Both the position numbers and the translations under genes were made by a program. Below are positions 23,916 to 43,973 of a stretch of 44,968 nucleotides of DNA, piece by piece; position 1 is the stretch's first letter; each line of letters begins with the position of its first letter. This DNA comes from a virus. The stretch is taken from positions 1 through 44,968 of IMG/VR virus record IMGVR_UViG_3300005515_000635; one strand, given 5' to 3'. The notes beneath the pieces were generated by a model. That model did not search any database and was not told the DNA's origin. It was given only the letters and a program-made list of their open reading frames with translations.

Positions 23916-25100
23916 TTAGGTGCCTTTCAGGTTGAGCACCTGTCGCAGCTCGTATTCGATGTCGACGAGATCCGCGGCATCAGCCATCACGACGTCGATG
24001 TCCTTGTAGGCGTCGGGGATCTCGTCGATCCACTCCGGTCCGGGCCGGTACTCAATGCCCTTCATGCGATCGGCTAGGTCGGCTTCGGTGTACCGCCTTT
24101 TGGCTTCAGTTCGGGAGAACCTGCGGCCAGCACCGTGGGGAGCTGAGCACAGCCCTGCTTGGTTGCCCTTGCCGCGCACAACATACGAGCGTGTGCCCAT
24201 AGACCCCGGGATGACAGCCCTCACACCTTCGTGGGCGTCCACGGCGCCCTTGCGGGTCAACCAAACGTCCTTCCCGAAGTGTTGTTCCTTGCGGGTGTAG
24301 TTGTGGTGGCAGTTGATGCGCTCTACCTCGATATCCGGATCGGAACCCATCCAATGAACCAGGGTTTGGCGGTAGCGGTCAATCATCTCGTTGCGGTTCT
24401 CGTAGGCGAACTTCTGCGCCCAGTTCAACTCTTTGAGGTAGTCGCCGAACTCAGGGATGCCGACCGGGAGGTACGCGAGGTCGATGTCGGGGAGTTGGAT
24501 GTGCCACTGCTTCATCAACTTCTGCGCAATCTTGATGTGCTTCTGCGCGATCTTGTTGCCCACACCGCGTGACCCGGAGTGCAGGAACATCCACACCCGG
24601 TCCTCGTTGTCCAAGCACAGTTCGATGAAGTGATTACCGCCGCCCAATGAGCCGAGCTGTTCCCGCCACTTCGGTGAATGGGTGAGGTCGATGTCGTTGT
24701 CGGCGGCCAACTTCTCGAGCATCGCGATGCGCTCGGTGGTGAAACCGTACCGCTGGAGGGACTTGTTGTAGTTCCCCGGAGATAGAGGGATGGCTGACTC
24801 AAGGGATTCACGGAGGTCGTGCAAGTCCTTGCCGTCGATGTCGGTGGCGGTGAATCGGGTGCGGGCGGCGACCATCCCACACCCGATGTCCACACCGACC
24901 GCAGCGGGAATCACCGCGTCCAGGGTGGGGATGACGGTGCCGACCGCTGAACCCTTCCCGGAGTGGGCGTCAGGCATCAACGCGATGTGCGGGTGGATGA
25001 ACGGCATGGACGCCGTCATCTTCGCTTGCTCGATTGCGTTGTCGTCGACCTGGGAGGCGAAGTTCAGCAGCTTGAACCCGTCGATGCGGTGGACGGTCAC
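23916..25100 (-). CDS. rtcB: RNA ligase RtcB
   Basis: This 394-residue RtcB-family protein joins 2',3'-cyclic or 3'-phosphate RNA ends to 5'-OH ends using GTP and Mn2+. All signature residues are present: DIGCGM with metal ligand C74, GGGNHFIE with H157, HSGSRGVG with H174, NCHHNY with H265/H266, and SAPHGAGRRFSR with H322, the residue that is guanylylated. PDAHSGKG (43-50) is also typical. The length is near the short bacterial class. The GTG start overlaps the ro60 stop (GTGA), so the two proteins are translationally coupled. It should repair tRNA or mRNA cut by ribonucleases and may act on RNA bound by Ro60. No rtcA is seen. Confidence 0.97.
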   Translation of the reverse strand: MTVHRIDGFKLLNFASQVDDNAIEQAKMTASMPFIHPHIALMPDAHSGKGSAVGTVIPTLDAVIPAAVGVDIGCGMVAARTRFTATDIDGKDLHDLRESLESAIPLSPGNYNKSLQRYGFTTERIAMLEKLAADNDIDLTHSPKWREQLGSLGGGNHFIELCLDNEDRVWMFLHSGSRGVGNKIAQKHIKIAQKLMKQWHIQLPDIDLAYLPVGIPEFGDYLKELNWAQKFAYENRNEMIDRYRQTLVHWMGSDPDIEVERINCHHNYTRKEQHFGKDVWLTRKGAVDAHEGVRAVIPGSMGTRSYVVRGKGNQAGLCSAPHGAGRRFSRTEAKRRYTEADLADRMKGIEYRPGPEWIDEIPDAYKDIDVVMADAADLVDIEYELRQVLNLKGT

Positions 25101-26719
25101 AGGTCACCTCGGGAGAAGTCAGCCAGCAGGTTGGGGACGACGGAGTCGAACCCGGATACGTCTAACTGGCCGGGGTCCGTGGGGTCGGCGATGGTGAAGT
25201 TCGTGGCGATCATCGCGACCACGACGAGGCGGGCGTCGATGCCCATCTTCTCCCGGTACTCCCGCAACGCTTGATGAGGATGGACCGGGCCGACCCATGT
25301 TTCGTTGTCGGTGTAGATGTGGAAGGTGTCGACCTCAACATTGTTCTGCATCGCCCACACCATCGGCAGACCGCAGTCGGTACGCCCCATGGGCAATTGG
25401 GAGGTGTAACGGCATACGTCGTCCAAGCGCCGGCGGGGACTGATATCCAACTCCGTCAAAGAGGTACCGGTGACACGCCATCCGTCGTTGGTGCCGGTGA
25501 AGCCGACAATGCGATGGTCAGGTTCCGTTGCGGCGGTGACCATCGCCAACGCCGCTGCTGCCTCGCGGCACGACAACGGCAGCCCCGACACCGCTGCGCT
25601 CATGGACCCGGAAATGTCCAAGGCCAGAAGGGTGCGCTTGTTGGCCGGTTCGATCGCACCGTAAGCGTTGTAGAACGCGGCATCCAACGCGTCGGTGACC
25701 ATCGACACCGGATGCCATGTGGACTCACCTCGAGAGGAGACCCCGGAGGCGTAGGTACGTTGCGCGACGAGGACATTGACCGGGTGAACACGACCGCGCT
25801 TCAACTGCTCCGCATCCTGCAACTGGGCGGCGACGGTCCGGCCTACATCGCCCTGGAGCACACCAAGACGGGTGAGGCGGGGTAGTTGCCGCATCAACGC
25901 TGTTTGGGGCATCCCATTGGCGATGAGAGCCCGCCACACGTCAGCATTGGTCAGTGCGTGGTCCGGCAGCATCTCCCACGTCAGCATCGGGTAATCACTG
26001 AGCGCGATCAGCACTTCGTCGGCGGTGCCTGCGTGCTGGACGGTTTCGAACCCATGCACGATGGGCGGTAGTTCTGAAGCCCATTCGGGGCGCTCATCGG
26101 GCAGTCCCCGGCAGATGTAGTCGAACAACGCACCCTTCGTCGAGGTGTCCGCGACAGGGTGAGAGAGGCGGAGGAGGTCGCGGTGCGTCCACCCATCGCG
26201 CTGCCGGTACTTCAACGCTTGGTAGGCCAGTTTGTCGGCGGGCTTGTCGGAGTACCACGACCCAACAGCCTTTCGAAGGCCGCGACCCCAACCGCGGAAC
26301 TGCTCGACGTACCCGGCGAACAGGAACAAATGCGTTCCGGTGCGGGCAACCTGAGGTAGTGCGGCGAGTGCTGCGGCTCGGCCAGCATCGTCGTCCGACG
26401 CGGCGGCGATGGCCAGCGCGAACAGGGCGGGGTTGTTCTTCGGCGCACGGCCCGCTGCGGACACTTCCACGACGTGCCGGACAAGTTCGACGGGATCGTT
26501 TGCGGCGGCCCGAAACACGACTTCGGCGTTGTCGCGGGTCATGTCCTTGGCGCTGGCGTAATACGTTCCACCGTCGGTTCCCAAGGTGAGGAAGCGGTGG
26601 AGACGAGCCTTGTCGTCAACGGTGAATGTGTATCCGCCGGCGGTGTTCTTCACCTGCCGTGGGTCGGCCTTGTCGGACTGAGCGGTGCGGCGGGTGTTGA
26701 TGGTGCTGAGAACGTCCAC
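25097..26719 (-). CDS. rsr: Ro60/Rsr RNA-binding protein (TROVE and vWA domains)
   Basis: This 540-residue protein starts at GTG 26719 with AGGAG five bases upstream. The N-terminus (NTRRTAQSDKAD, NTAGGYTFTVDDKARLHRFLTLG) and HEAT-like helices to about 330 match the TROVE ring that binds misfolded RNA ends inside and Y RNA outside. A von Willebrand A domain follows, with the MIDAS motif DISGSMS (368-374) and RTD (446-448). Length equals bacterial Rsr. The three Y-like RNAs immediately upstream and rtcB downstream mirror host rsr-Y RNA-rtcB loci. The likely role is RNA quality control or guided decay during infection. Confidence 0.97.
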   Translation of the reverse strand: MDVLSTINTRRTAQSDKADPRQVKNTAGGYTFTVDDKARLHRFLTLGTDGGTYYASAKDMTRDNAEVVFRAAANDPVELVRHVVEVSAAGRAPKNNPALFALAIAAASDDDAGRAAALAALPQVARTGTHLFLFAGYVEQFRGWGRGLRKAVGSWYSDKPADKLAYQALKYRQRDGWTHRDLLRLSHPVADTSTKGALFDYICRGLPDERPEWASELPPIVHGFETVQHAGTADEVLIALSDYPMLTWEMLPDHALTNADVWRALIANGMPQTALMRQLPRLTRLGVLQGDVGRTVAAQLQDAEQLKRGRVHPVNVLVAQRTYASGVSSRGESTWHPVSMVTDALDAAFYNAYGAIEPANKRTLLALDISGSMSAAVSGLPLSCREAAAALAMVTAATEPDHRIVGFTGTNDGWRVTGTSLTELDISPRRRLDDVCRYTSQLPMGRTDCGLPMVWAMQNNVEVDTFHIYTDNETWVGPVHPHQALREYREKMGIDARLVVVAMIATNFTIADPTDPGQLDVSGFDSVVPNLLADFSRGDL

Positions 26720-31326: not shown

Positions 31327-32136
31327 TCAGGCATTGACGGCCTCCTGGTGTGCACAACGGGCAAGAGCGCCGTCTTCGTTGACCTCGATGCGCCCGTACT
31401 CGTCACAGCGATTGCATGCCTTGATGGCGGCGACGCGGGCCTCGTTCTGAAGGGACTTCGCCTGCTCCTCAGCATCGAGAGACTGGTTCTCCCAAGCCTC
31501 GAGCGCTTCGCGGTAGGACTTGCACGCCCAGCACGCCTTGTCGGTTCCGCTTGGATGCTTTGGGCAATATCTGGGTGGGGCGGCCCCCTCCCCAGAGTGA
31601 CCCACTACGGAACTACCACCTGTCCCTGTAACTGTTCCTGTACTGGAGGGTTCCGAAAGGGTTCGAGTTCCAGAAGGGTTCGTCGGATCGGGACGAAGGG
31701 TTCCGGAAGGGTTCAACACATCAGCGAGGTCGGCCGCTTCCTTGCGGTGTAGACGAAGTAGTTCGGCTGCCACCTCCACGCGGAGCTTGGGCGACTCCAC
31801 CATCCCCGCCGACTTCAACGCCGACTTGAAGATGTTCGGGGACTTCACAACCCCTGCGGTCCGCATGTAGGACCGGACGAACAACTCGTCAGTGTCTTGG
31901 TCAAAGAACACGAACCGAGCTTCCTCGAGCGCCAGGAGGTCAGCCAGGATGCTTTCTTGGGTGACCTCGTCGCAGCCCTTAGCCAGCAACGAGATGTGCA
32001 GCGTCAGCAGGCCGGCGCAATCCAAATCCTTCTGCGAAACCAGTTGCAGATACGTGCATTGGGCGTTGCGGGTGAGTCTTCGAAAGTCTCTGTCCCGCCA
32101 AATGGATTCCCTGATGAGGGCCGCCGCGTTAGCCAT
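31327..32136 (-). CDS. Replisome-organizer-like winged-helix protein
   Basis: 269 residues. The N-terminal 115 residues (MANAAALIRESIWRDRDFRRLTRNAQCTYLQLVSQKDL, LTLHISLLAKGCDE) match a HTH protein common in actinophage early regions and similar to DnaD/initiator N-domains. A Pro/Ser/Thr linker (about 145-185) is encoded by DNA iterons. The C-terminal part has Cys pairs (CPKH, CWAC, CNRC). By analogy with lambda O, it may bind the repeats inside its own gene and recruit host helicase. Confidence 0.75.
   Translation of the reverse strand: MANAAALIRESIWRDRDFRRLTRNAQCTYLQLVSQKDLDCAGLLTLHISLLAKGCDEVTQESILADLLALEEARFVFFDQDTDELFVRSYMRTAGVVKSPNIFKSALKSAGMVESPKLRVEVAAELLRLHRKEAADLADVLNPSGTLRPDPTNPSGTRTLSEPSSTGTVTGTGGSSVVGHSGEGAAPPRYCPKHPSGTDKACWACKSYREALEAWENQSLDAEEQAKSLQNEARVAAIKACNRCDEYGRIEVNEDGALARCAHQEAVNA
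31648..31714 (-). repeat. Three 17-bp iterons, candidate replication origin
   Basis: Plus-strand copies are GGGTTCCGAAAGGGTTC (31648-31664), GAGTTCCAGAAGGGTTC (31665-31681) and GGGTTCCGGAAGGGTTC (31698-31714). Copies 1 and 2 are tandem and the third is 33 bp from the second. Copy 1 is read in a different codon frame from copies 2 and 3, so the repetition is not explained by protein sequence. Iterons inside an initiator gene are a classic phage origin layout. Confidence 0.6.
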
Positions 32137-32971
32137 AGACGTAGTCCTCCGCCTCTTCGGCGGCGTCGTTTATCGCCTCTACTTCTTGAGCCTTCCTGTG
32201 CTTGCGAATGGAGAAGGCTTCTATCGACTCTCGAGTTCGGGCCGCAGCGACTATCTGACAAAGCATGTCGCTCTCACACAGGCCATCAGCGTGGTCTTCG
32301 CATTCCAGAAATCCACCGGCGTAGTTCGCTTCGACACCCTCTAGCGTCATCAGATGGTGGAGGTCGTCTTCGGTCCATCGCGTCGTTATTGCAAACGCTG
32401 ATGACGATGGGGTTTGGGATTGCATCAGCTCGGCCGCCAACTCTTGGTTCTGCCGGATGCGCCTCCAGCAACATCCGCAGAAGTACTTCCATTTGTCCCT
32501 GCCCGATGCTGGCCCCTGCATGGTGACGCCAACAAGTTCCTCTATTTCCTGTGTGGTTAGGCCTGCCTTGATGAACTGGGGAATGGTCGTCTGCGCACCG
32601 GACGCGTCGTACGTGTCGCCGCGCCAATCAGTCCAGCTATCCCAGATGGACATGAACCAATCGACCATCTGAAACACGTCGTTGAGTTCGGCCGCTCGCA
32701 TCTCCGCGACCTGCTGCATCGCTAGGGACCACCTTTGAGCGTCTGCCGCTACATCAGCCACCACCGGCGCATCAGCGGGGACTGACGACTTCCCACCATT
32801 GCAATCACTGCAAAGGGTTTGAAGATTCGACGGCTCATTGCCTCCACCGAGGGCCACGGGGACGACGTGGTCGACGTGAAGTTTGACCTCGGGTGGCGTT
32901 CGCCCGCATACCTTGCAGGCGTTGTTGTCGCGACGCAGGATCTCAAACCGGAGTCGCTTTGAGACAGTCAT
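32129..32971 (-). CDS. HNH endonuclease domain protein
   Basis: Start at ATG 32971 (ATGA overlap), 280 residues. The HNH domain is at about 1-65: FEILRRDNNACKVCGRTPP, HVDHVVPVALGGGNEPSNLQTLC, CNGGKSS. The rest is helical with CGCCWRRIRQNQELAAEL, a pattern seen in phage HNH proteins of early regions. It may be a nuclease for recombination or host DNA attack. It overlaps the initiator gene by 8 nt. Confidence 0.85.
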   Translation of the reverse strand: MTVSKRLRFEILRRDNNACKVCGRTPPEVKLHVDHVVPVALGGGNEPSNLQTLCSDCNGGKSSVPADAPVVADVAADAQRWSLAMQQVAEMRAAELNDVFQMVDWFMSIWDSWTDWRGDTYDASGAQTTIPQFIKAGLTTQEIEELVGVTMQGPASGRDKWKYFCGCCWRRIRQNQELAAELMQSQTPSSSAFAITTRWTEDDLHHLMTLEGVEANYAGGFLECEDHADGLCESDMLCQIVAAARTRESIEAFSIRKHRKAQEVEAINDAAEEAEDYVYG

Positions 32972-33207
32972 TTGGCACCACTCCCCGATGCGTTGCACCA
33001 ACCGCTGAGATTGCCCGACTTGATGTTCCGCCAGAAGTCAGTCGTCCAAGTCCGCGAGCAGCCAAACCCGACGTACTCCTCGATGCGCCGCCAATACGTC
33101 TGGCAGGTGTCGCAGCGCCAGATGGTGCCGATGGGGTCGTCGCACTTGGGCAGCGGGCACTTGTGCTCGACCGGGGGGATGTGAACGTACGAACCGCCGG
33201 CGCTCAT
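32968..33207 (-). CDS. 79-residue zinc-ribbon protein
   Basis: CPLPKCDDPIGTIWRCDTCQTYWRR is a clear zinc ribbon, with further GCSRTW near residue 50. This type is frequent in actinophage genomes. Coupled on both sides by ATGA. Confidence 0.75.
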   Translation of the reverse strand: MSAGGSYVHIPPVEHKCPLPKCDDPIGTIWRCDTCQTYWRRIEEYVGFGCSRTWTTDFWRNIKSGNLSGWCNASGSGAK

Positions 33208-35726: not shown

Positions 35727-35881
35727 CAGTCCTCCCTCAGCCACTTCGCTGGCATCGGCGTGTGCCCGTCGTGGTCGGAGAAGTGCCACCACCCCATGTG
35801 CTCAAGATCCTCGAGTTGCCCAATGGCTTTACGGCATGTGCGGCACAGGGTGACGGTGCCGAGCTTGAGACGGTCAGACAT
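35723..35881 (-). CDS. 52-residue protein with CxxC
   Basis: ATG 35881 overlaps the ATPase gene end by 8 nt, and its stop overlaps the next GTG. LCRTCRKAIGQLEDLEHMGWWHFSDHDGH has a Cys pair and several His that could complete a zinc site. Confidence 0.6.
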   Translation of the reverse strand: MSDRLKLGTVTLCRTCRKAIGQLEDLEHMGWWHFSDHDGHTPMPAKWLREDW

Positions 35882-36878
35882 TCAGTGCCCCTTGCTCTGC
35901 CTCTACGGGCTGCCCGGTGACGTAATCAGTTCGCAGATCCTCCAGAAGGTTCCGCACCGCCTGAGCATCATTCGTCTCCTCCAACGACGACTCCGTCTCA
36001 CGGAAGAACCGCTCCGACAACTGCTTGTAGTTGATGCCGTGCTCACGGATGAAAGCGCCCAGAAGTGAACGGGCTTGGTCGGCTTGGGCTTTCTCGTCAC
36101 TGATGAGTGGTGTGACGTCGCGGGTTTGGGCTGTCTTCAATCCCATGACGTCGAACACCAGATGCTCCAACGTGAAGTCTGGGTACTTCTGTGGTGGGTC
36201 GACACCGGGTCTCATGCCGTTGGTCGCGGACCGGAAGCTGACCACCACGGGGGCACTGTCGCGGGAGAGTCGGACGTGGGCGTTGACGCGGAACGGGAGG
36301 TTCTTGTTCGCCTCGACGGAGTAATCCTTGGCGTTCGGGATGGGTCTCCCCGCATCATCAACGGCCATCGTCTCCTTCCCCTTCGCCGTGAGTACGACGA
36401 TTCCGGGGAAGCGGGACAACAGGTTCAAGAACTGGTGATGCCTGTCATTTGCGTCATTCCACAGGTTGGGGGCGGGTTTGATCTCCGCGTCCGGGTCCGC
36501 CGCCAACAGCTTCTTCCCGTTACGTGACGACCGTGCCCGGGTGTTCACCCACGCTTTGAGCATGTCCCACAGATTCGACATGGAATCAATGACCAGCACG
36601 GCCGGCATATCCGACCCAGATGCTGCTTCCGTTGCCTCCCGAACCTGGTCGCAGATGTCCTGCCACGACCCGTCATGGTCCAAAATCAGGTAGTCGGCCC
36701 CAGGGACGTTGATGTACTCGTCCGCGGCACCTTCCCCCAAGTCCATCCAATACGCCTGCCCTGTGCGCTCTGAGCCGGTGAATTGGGCTGCCTGGTACGA
36801 CTTGCCCACAGAGTCGGGGCCTTCGATGAGAATCATTGGCCAGGACGGCACCCCCGACGGAACTCTCGTTCTCAGCAT
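35874..36878 (-). CDS. RecA/AAA-like ATPase
   Basis: 334 residues. Walker A GPDSVGKS (20-27), Walker B-like AVLVIDSM (93-100), then NDANDRHHQFLNLLSRFPGIVVLTAKG, the core of phage RecA-like NTPases (Sak4/RadA-type or early AAA ATPases). The C-terminal 100 residues are helical. It may promote recombination or load onto replication forks. Neighbours are the 155-aa protein and the HNH/methyltransferase genes. Confidence 0.85.
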   Translation of the reverse strand: MLRTRVPSGVPSWPMILIEGPDSVGKSYQAAQFTGSERTGQAYWMDLGEGAADEYINVPGADYLILDHDGSWQDICDQVREATEAASGSDMPAVLVIDSMSNLWDMLKAWVNTRARSSRNGKKLLAADPDAEIKPAPNLWNDANDRHHQFLNLLSRFPGIVVLTAKGKETMAVDDAGRPIPNAKDYSVEANKNLPFRVNAHVRLSRDSAPVVVSFRSATNGMRPGVDPPQKYPDFTLEHLVFDVMGLKTAQTRDVTPLISDEKAQADQARSLLGAFIREHGINYKQLSERFFRETESSLEETNDAQAVRNLLEDLRTDYVTGQPVEAEQGALNV

Positions 36879-41761: not shown

Positions 41762-42066
41762 TCGCCCTCCCTAGGCCAGTCGATTCGCGTGGACCGTTCG
41801 ACAATCGCCGTGGCCCCGAAAGACTCGATGAGGTCGGCACGCTTCTTGGCAGTCGACCGTGAGCCGTACACCTGATTCGTTACGGGCCATACGAATTCAT
41901 CGGTGCCCATGATTCGGGTGTAGTCACCGACCGGACGCCAAGCTGGAGGACGCCAACCGGGGACGGGCTCTGACCATTCCTCGCCGCCGTAATCGACGAC
42001 TTCATGAGACCCCTCGGGGAATGAAGTGACTCGCACCCGGTAGAGGTAGCTTCCCGAGAACTTCAC
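41758..42066 (-). CDS. Early protein, function unknown
   Basis: 102 residues, GTG start. Trp/Pro-rich (GGEEWSEPVPGWRPPAWRPV) with a basic helix (SRSTAKKRADLIESFGA). The end pattern resembles small phage proteins with no known role. Confidence 0.6.
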   Translation of the reverse strand: MKFSGSYLYRVRVTSFPEGSHEVVDYGGEEWSEPVPGWRPPAWRPVGDYTRIMGTDEFVWPVTNQVYGSRSTAKKRADLIESFGATAIVERSTRIDWPREGE

Positions 42067-42926
42067 GATGCGTCACCCCGACCCAGCTCCCGAGGCAGCC
42101 TGAGGGTGCCGTTGTCGGCGACGTACTGAGTGATGCGCTTCCACGCGAAGTCCTGGCCGAGCGGGGTGAGCTTCCCGACTGCGTAGGCGTGTCCGTTCTT
42201 CTTGCTGACGCCCTTGTCTGTGTAGGCAAGTCCGCGGCGGATCGCTTCGGCGGTGGCGTGCCCGGTGTCGGAGCGCTCGCCCTTGATGAACAACCCGATG
42301 TGGCCGAGGAAGCGCATCACCTCTTCTTGGAGGATGGTGATGTTCTGCTTCTTCCCCCACGTCTTCACCTCGCGGGAAAACTCCTGACGATGGATTGCGG
42401 TGTCGGACACGGTGTGCGCTTCGGCCTTCGCGACCATCGGCGCGTCACGCTCGATAGCAGCGACCAGGGTTCGGTTTTCGACGGTGAGTTCTTTCACCTT
42501 GCTGTCAAGGATGTGGAGCGCACGGTGAACGATCTGGTCCTCGGTCAACTCGACGACAGGCGGTGCAACTTCTGCTTCGCGAGCCTTGACTGCGAAGTAA
42601 GCCTGAGCCTCGGCCACCCGAGGCAAGTTGGGGTCACCATTCATGACGGTCAGATAGGCGCCGAACCGAGAGAGTTCGTGGTCGGATCGTGGTCGACCCC
42701 CGCCAGAGGGTTTTTCGGTGATCGCCGAAAAACTGCGGGGGACGTCGTGACCGCTGTTTTGGGCCGACGCGATGGCGCGGTCCACGATTTTCGCGAAGTC
42801 TTCCCACCGGGCGTAGGCGGTAGCCACCTGAAGATCGCGTGCCGTCCAGTATTCGGACCCGTCTTCCCTCACCCGCCTAATGGCGTCGAACGGAGACTGC
42901 TCCCCGGTAGGCTGTAGTTCTGACAC
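42063..42926 (-). CDS. Antirepressor-like protein (DinD/BRO N-domain, KilAC-like C-domain)
   Basis: 287 residues. SPFDAIRRVREDGSEYWTARDLQ, YARWEDFAKIVDRAI and RSDHELSRFGAYLTVMNGD are typical of DinD/P63C-type N-domains. DAPMVAKAEAH..VKTWGKKQNITILQEEVMRFLGHIGLF matches phage antirepressor C-domains. It likely inactivates the repressor during induction. It follows the Cro-like gene and a terminator hairpin. Confidence 0.85.
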   Translation of the reverse strand: MSELQPTGEQSPFDAIRRVREDGSEYWTARDLQVATAYARWEDFAKIVDRAIASAQNSGHDVPRSFSAITEKPSGGGRPRSDHELSRFGAYLTVMNGDPNLPRVAEAQAYFAVKAREAEVAPPVVELTEDQIVHRALHILDSKVKELTVENRTLVAAIERDAPMVAKAEAHTVSDTAIHRQEFSREVKTWGKKQNITILQEEVMRFLGHIGLFIKGERSDTGHATAEAIRRGLAYTDKGVSKKNGHAYAVGKLTPLGQDFAWKRITQYVADNGTLRLPRELGRGDAS

Positions 42927-43448: not shown

Positions 43449-43496
43449 TAGTTGACGAGTTTTCGAACATCCGCGTCAACGGGGAGGGTGACACCC

Positions 43497-43973
43497 GTGA
43501 GCGACCTACCACCAGAACAATGGCGGTCCCTGTTCGACAAGGTTAACGTCGAGTTCGGGTACCGGCCGCTCGCCACGCGTATCGGCATGGACCACACCCG
43601 TCTACGTCGCCTCCTGCTAGGGGGTGGCACGACAGCGGAAGCCATCAGTTTGGTGGCTGACGCGTTTGGCGTGAGGCCAGACGAGATACGAGCGTTGCGT
43701 GGCGAGCAAGCAATGGTGTGGGAGCCGTTCACCCTCCCCGACGAAGCGGGGCGGCTCAACCACGATGAACGCGAGGTAGTCCGCAGTGTTATCAACGCCA
43801 TTCTCAAAGCCCGTGATGATTCGGCCGCGAAATCGGATGCATCGGGCGAAGCGGGCAAAGTCGAGAAGACCGACGACTCAGGTGACGACGCGGAGTCGTT
43901 GTCCAGGCTCCGGTCCGCATTGCATGGAGTGGCCGTGGAAGAGCCCCAGAAGCGCAACGATGAAGGGGCCTGA
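43497..43973 (+). CDS. Immunity-repressor-like HTH protein
   Basis: Start at GTG 43497 (GGGGAGG upstream), 158 residues. FGYRPLATRIGMDHTRLRRLLLGGGTTAEAISLVADAFGV is a XRE-type HTH; an acidic/basic helical region and a Ser/Asp/Lys-rich tail follow. Plus strand, divergent from the Cro-like gene, followed by a membrane protein gene. This is the usual place of an actinophage immunity repressor. Confidence 0.72.
   Translation: MSDLPPEQWRSLFDKVNVEFGYRPLATRIGMDHTRLRRLLLGGGTTAEAISLVADAFGVRPDEIRALRGEQAMVWEPFTLPDEAGRLNHDEREVVRSVINAILKARDDSAAKSDASGEAGKVEKTDDSGDDAESLSRLRSALHGVAVEEPQKRNDEGA

Follow-up and report, generated by a model that had tools for sequence, protein, structure and literature searches.

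A conserved intragenic repeat array in an actinophage replication initiator gene is a probable iteron-based replication origin

Comparison of a replication initiator gene from the window (the whole 44,968-bp stretch of viral DNA analysed here) with its relatives in actinobacterial phages revealed a repeated motif upon which selection acts, beyond reasonable doubt, at the DNA level. Since the motif occurs in every codon frame, on either strand or just outside the initiator coding sequence, there is very little doubt that it serves as a DNA binding site, and we put at about 0.84 the probability that the repeats are iterons bound by the N-terminal domain (N-domain) of the initiator that this gene encodes, forming the phage replication origin together with the tract on their 3' side. 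To our knowledge, few phages of Mycobacterium, Gordonia and Arthrobacter have a mapped replication origin; intragenic iteron origins are of a known kind, and as far as could be found none had been mapped previously in these actinophages. The relevant features of the window are as follows:

31327-32136, minus strand: replication initiator gene (269 aa; phrog_3171)
31714-32136, minus strand: N-terminal DNA-binding domain, residues 1-141, a predicted winged helix (AlphaFold; wHTH matches)
31644-31714, minus strand: putative iteron array at the start of the linker, with four exact cores and one degenerate copy
31657-31663, 31674-31680, 31696-31702 and 31707-31713, minus strand: the exact AACCCTT cores
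31619-31645, minus strand: 6-bp-periodic tract CAGTACAGGAACAGTTACAGGGACAGG, directly 3' of the array
31587-31616, minus strand: putative second origin element, a box ending in GGGGAGG, weak in the window
31330-31566, minus strand: C-terminal domain with Cys/His pairs (C191, H194, C202, C205, C241 and C244) in nearly invariant columns

The 269-aa protein matched the profile of phrog_3171, a recognised phage replication initiation family (E 1.3e-68), in agreement with an earlier sequence-only reading of the gene as replisome-organizer-like, and had no match in Pfam. TBLASTN searches retrieved relatives from 283 phage records, mostly of Mycobacterium, Gordonia and Arthrobacter, several of them annotated as a replication initiation protein or RepA-like replication initiator, and a profile search of 396 genomes, drawn from the genus to which one relative-bearing Mycolicibacterium genome belongs, found relatives in 43. 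The N-domain was modelled confidently by AlphaFold (residues 9-141, with a pLDDT of about 90 over 11-140) and is predicted to fold as a winged helix, followed by a linker predicted to be disordered (lowest confidence at 153-183) and a long helix flanked by the Cys/His pairs. Its top VIA matches were the plasmid initiators 4pql, 4pt7, 5kbj and 4pta (Z 6.0-6.3), tied with CRP-type winged helices, and amongst predicted viral structures it matched proteins named replisome organizer (E 1.9e-5); a sequence search found no solved structure for the initiator, and Foldseek against the PDB returned weak matches only. We do not assign the gene to RepA_N, given that these structure scores tie with CRP-type domains and that the Pfam RepA_N profile matched neither the window protein (E up to 1) nor any of 17 aligned family members (E up to 5). 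The C-terminal domain is, judging from its Cys/His pairs, the probable zinc-binding and replisome-recruiting part.

The initiator gene is neighboured by an HNH nuclease gene and by a gene for a phrog_15197 protein of unknown function. The HNH endonuclease gene (32129-33001, minus strand) shares 8 bp with the start of the initiator gene, and Walrus, Yoshi, Sbash and Ohgeesy show the same nuclease-then-initiator order. Among the open reading frames (ORFs) scanned, none was recognised as a polymerase, helicase or primase, and replication therefore probably relies on the host replisome; nor was a helicase loader recognised beside the initiator gene. Further afield, the window encodes an AAA_24/Sak4-like ATPase (35874-36878, minus strand) and has an RtcB-like RNA ligase gene directly beside a gene for a Ro-like RNA-binding protein (23916-26719, minus strand), possibly an RNA-repair pair in a phage. 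An Ant-like anti-repressor (42063-42926, minus strand) and a divergent repressor (43452-43973, plus strand) suggest a temperate phage, and no integrase or ParAB was recognised in the ORFs scanned.

Within the record, GAACCCTTYYGGAACYCK was matched exactly three times, at 31647-31664, 31664-31681 and 31697-31714, always on the minus strand, and a reversed-pattern control gave no matches; neither these repeats nor a second array were found anywhere else in its 44,968 bp. With starts at 31648, 31665 and 31698, the 17-bp copies are offset by 17 and 33 bp, so the latter two share a codon frame that differs from that of the first, such that NPSGTL and NPSGTR are encoded in one frame and (R)TLSEP in the other. 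Three 17-bp repeats in the initiator linker, one of them read in another frame, had been noted from the sequence alone, and they are confirmed as exact copies; the unit itself should instead be read as one of approximately 11 bp, GGAACCCTTCC, with the core AACCCTT. The start-to-start distances between the four exact cores are 11, 22 and 17 bp, and a degenerate GGAACCCTCC copy adjoins them at 31644-31654. When the linker was recoded synonymously 20,000 times, no recoding reached four cores (null mean 0.09-0.24, maximum 2-3) or the nine out-of-frame 8-mer pairs present in the window (null mean about 0.25), and the best out-of-frame 17-mer identity was 16/17, whereas none of 150 recodings exceeded 14/17.

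Relatives were extracted with an N-domain profile and their linkers dereplicated at 85%, which left 23 linkers in the close clade. A 7-mer search of these, run without supplying the motif, returned AACCCTT/AAGGGTT as the most over-represented word, with 52 sites seen against 4.9 expected and a maximum of 11 in 200 recodings. The sites are spread 21/9/22 over the three codon frames and lie in direct (41) or inverted (11) orientation, with two or more frames used in 11 of the 13 linkers that carry at least two sites. The commonest spacing, seen in 12 cases, is 11 bp; other pairs stand 22, 33, 44 and 55 bp apart, and 8 bp is also frequent. Only four sites occur in 84 kb of remaining gene and flanks, compared with the 52 in 4.7 kb of linker, and in nine whole records the sole cluster of cores sits in the initiator gene. 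Depending on frame, the motif encodes NPSGT, GTLP or EPF, or when inverted KGSG, GRV or EGF; between the window and its nearest relatives, one site has flipped strand (GAACCCTTCTGGAAC to GAAGGGTTCCGGAAC), changing TNPSGT to TKGSGT with the site kept. Since the site has to be preserved as DNA, the amino acid sequence of the linker simply follows from the motif in the frame concerned. In 48 linkers that include distant clades, 433 out-of-frame 8-mer pairs were counted against 43 under the null (maximum 76), and the distant clades carry other cores at the same place, for example AACCGTT, ACCCCRT, GACCCTC and TAACCCC. The repeats are present in relatives, so the refuting condition set by the sequence-only reading, their absence from close relatives, did not hold, and its suggestion of DNA-level selection is borne out by the synonymous null, the use of three frames and both orientations, the helical spacing and, as described below, arrays outside the initiator frame.

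In some Arthrobacter phages the initiator stops after the N-domain and the array lies directly 3' of the stop codon, so that the repeats are retained as DNA even where there is no linker to encode. The gp49 protein of Mufasa8 has 162 aa and its gene is followed immediately by GAAGGGTTCCGGGAACCCTTCCGGGAACCCTTCGGGGAACCCTTCCAGAAAGGGTTC; a second array lies some 140 bp downstream, for a total of 12 AACCCTT/AAGGGTT sites in 12-bp steps, after which come ACTCCTTA tandem repeats and DNA of 55% A+T. Similarly, gp37 of Jawnski is followed by 11 AGCCCCT/AGGGGCT sites in an annotated intergenic region and then by AACAACAGACAACA repeats and 53-60% A+T; AACCCTT recurs 3' of the initiator stop in Vibaki, and other repeats occupy this position in Wyborn and Abba. 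The arrays of Mufasa8 and Vibaki are overlapped by annotated hypothetical ORFs, but still lie beyond the stop of the initiator. These 'hypothetical proteins' (L078:1944-2252 in Mufasa8 and L117:1745-1888 in Vibaki) may not be real genes. In Jawnski (L080:2032-2277) the initiator frame remains open for about 80 codons past the stop, across the array, which may be left over from a coded linker or may merely reflect the 12-bp periodicity.

The word content of the linkers follows the N-domain of the protein (Spearman 0.56 with N-domain identity, versus 0.15 with C-domain identity), and the partial correlation with N-domain identity was reached by none of 200 permutations. This pattern fits recognition of the sites by the N-domain, with N-domain and array inherited as one cassette, although physical linkage could contribute. 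In a pair of chimeras (L010 and L082) whose C-domains are 0.89 and N-domains 0.31 identical, the linkers differ and the AACCCTT core is common to both.

Across the family, the 6-bp periodicity of the tract 3' of the array exceeds the synonymous null (0.497 versus 0.434, maximum 0.461). A DnaA-trio reading of this tract was set aside, since the step is 6 and not 3. Between 30 and 74 bp beyond the last core, A+T content across the family rises to 0.47-0.51, compared with 0.37 averaged over the gene; the flank in the window is only mildly A+T-rich (0.45), and values of 0.53-0.60 are found beside the arrays of Arthrobacter phages. GC skew has no clear turning point at the array. Beyond the tract, the words TCACCTT, AGGTGGT and GTTGGGG are over-represented in relatives, even in clades with other iterons, and these counts across distant clades are stronger support for a box than its third-position conservation, where the excess was 0.75 versus 0.23 bits in an alignment anchored on part of the box itself. 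An N-domain control indicated that an excess averaging 0.27, and reaching 0.45, arises from shared ancestry alone. As shared ancestry explains part of the signal and the window matches the box poorly, the box is suggestive only as a conserved second element. A CACCT..AGGTG hairpin within it was discarded, not being kept in all clades.

From these comparisons we infer binding by the encoded protein, the opening and firing of an origin, and a role for the C-terminal domain. Several initiator molecules would bind the iterons cooperatively as double-stranded sites through their winged-helix N-domains, with many sites presented on one face of the helix by the 11-bp steps; the adjacent A+T-richer segment would then open, and the zinc-type C-terminal domain may recruit parts of the host replisome.

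An improbable alternative, yet the foremost of those considered, is that the initiator does bind the sites, but for regulation, whether autorepression, copy-number control or handcuffing, or the control of lysogeny, with the origin located elsewhere. Comparison supports binding sites as such, and iteron systems of plasmids are generally known also to regulate copy number via initiator-initiator contacts (reviewed in PMC5043065); however, the array lies mid-gene or directly 3' of the gene and not at the promoter of that gene, it has no second counterpart in the record, and in relatives it is followed by a tandem tract and A+T-rich DNA. We regard as still less probable that the sites belong to another protein, as a partition centromere (parS) or as operators of a phage repressor. 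Extrachromosomal mycobacterial prophages do have direct-repeat parS sites, and in Miko and Rachaly such a site closely follows repA (PMC7157519), but no ParA or ParB was recognised among the part of the ORFs scanned, and whilst the window encodes a repressor and an Ant-like gene, the sites keep to a single gene, unlike operators, which are scattered, and their words track the initiator N-domain. That the DNA repeats are a by-product of a repetitive Pro/Ser/Gly/Thr protein linker has a negligible probability, as had been argued from the sequence alone: the linkers are of low complexity and partly repetitive, but this explanation is refuted by the synonymous nulls, the occurrence of sites in three frames and on both strands, and the arrays beyond the initiator's stop.

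The proposed iteron origin has several counterparts. In pSK41, Rep uses its N-domain to bind four Rep boxes within its own gene, and the linker encoded there is not required (PMC5703833). The RepA_N/pSK41 system resembles the present family in having a winged-helix N-domain (predicted in the present family), in repeats that are central in rep and encode the linker, and in the exchange of N-domain and origin separately from the C-domain, as in chimeras such as pPR9 (PMC5703833); the window family differs in lacking a Pfam RepA_N match, in its Cys/His C-domain, and in having mixed-orientation iterons in three frames in actinobacterial phages. Lambda likewise carries iterons inside its initiator gene O, followed by an A+T-rich segment, but these measure about 19 bp and are recognised by dimers of O (PMC5043065), whereas the window units are approximately 11 bp and no P-like helicase loader was recognised beside the initiator gene. 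SPP1 shares direct repeats and an A+T-rich element, with the oriL repeats located within the replisome-organizer gene 38, but has a second origin, oriR (PMC6316719), whereas the window record has one array. The one experimental study found on the origins of these actinophages is that of Wetzel et al., in which mycobacteriophage repA with its flanks sufficed for replication and ori was proposed to lie within or next to repA, and in which no repeats were seen in the region searched (PMC7157519). For the RepA-like initiators of Miko and Jeeves, possible relatives of the window family, ori was thus placed much as it is here (PMC7157519). A pCLP plasmid protein, tried as a link to these RepA proteins and possibly not the Rep protein itself, had no match in phages or PHROGs.

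A broader reading, to which we give slightly less than even odds, is that one origin system spans several hundred actinophages and prophages. Initiator and iterons would diversify as a cassette and the array would slide between the linker and 3' non-coding DNA, whilst a shared second element (TCACCT..GTAGGTGG..GTTGGGGAG, or of the GTAAGTA type) would be retained by clades whose iterons differ, serving all of them as a site of opening or loading. The comparative evidence is unusually clean, and it explains an odd feature of the protein, in that the linker is a three-frame translation of a DNA motif. If the repeats do mark the origin, the sequence itself would reveal its position in several hundred phages and prophages, which would supply short replicons for building shuttle vectors as well as a clean system in which to study initiator-iteron co-evolution.
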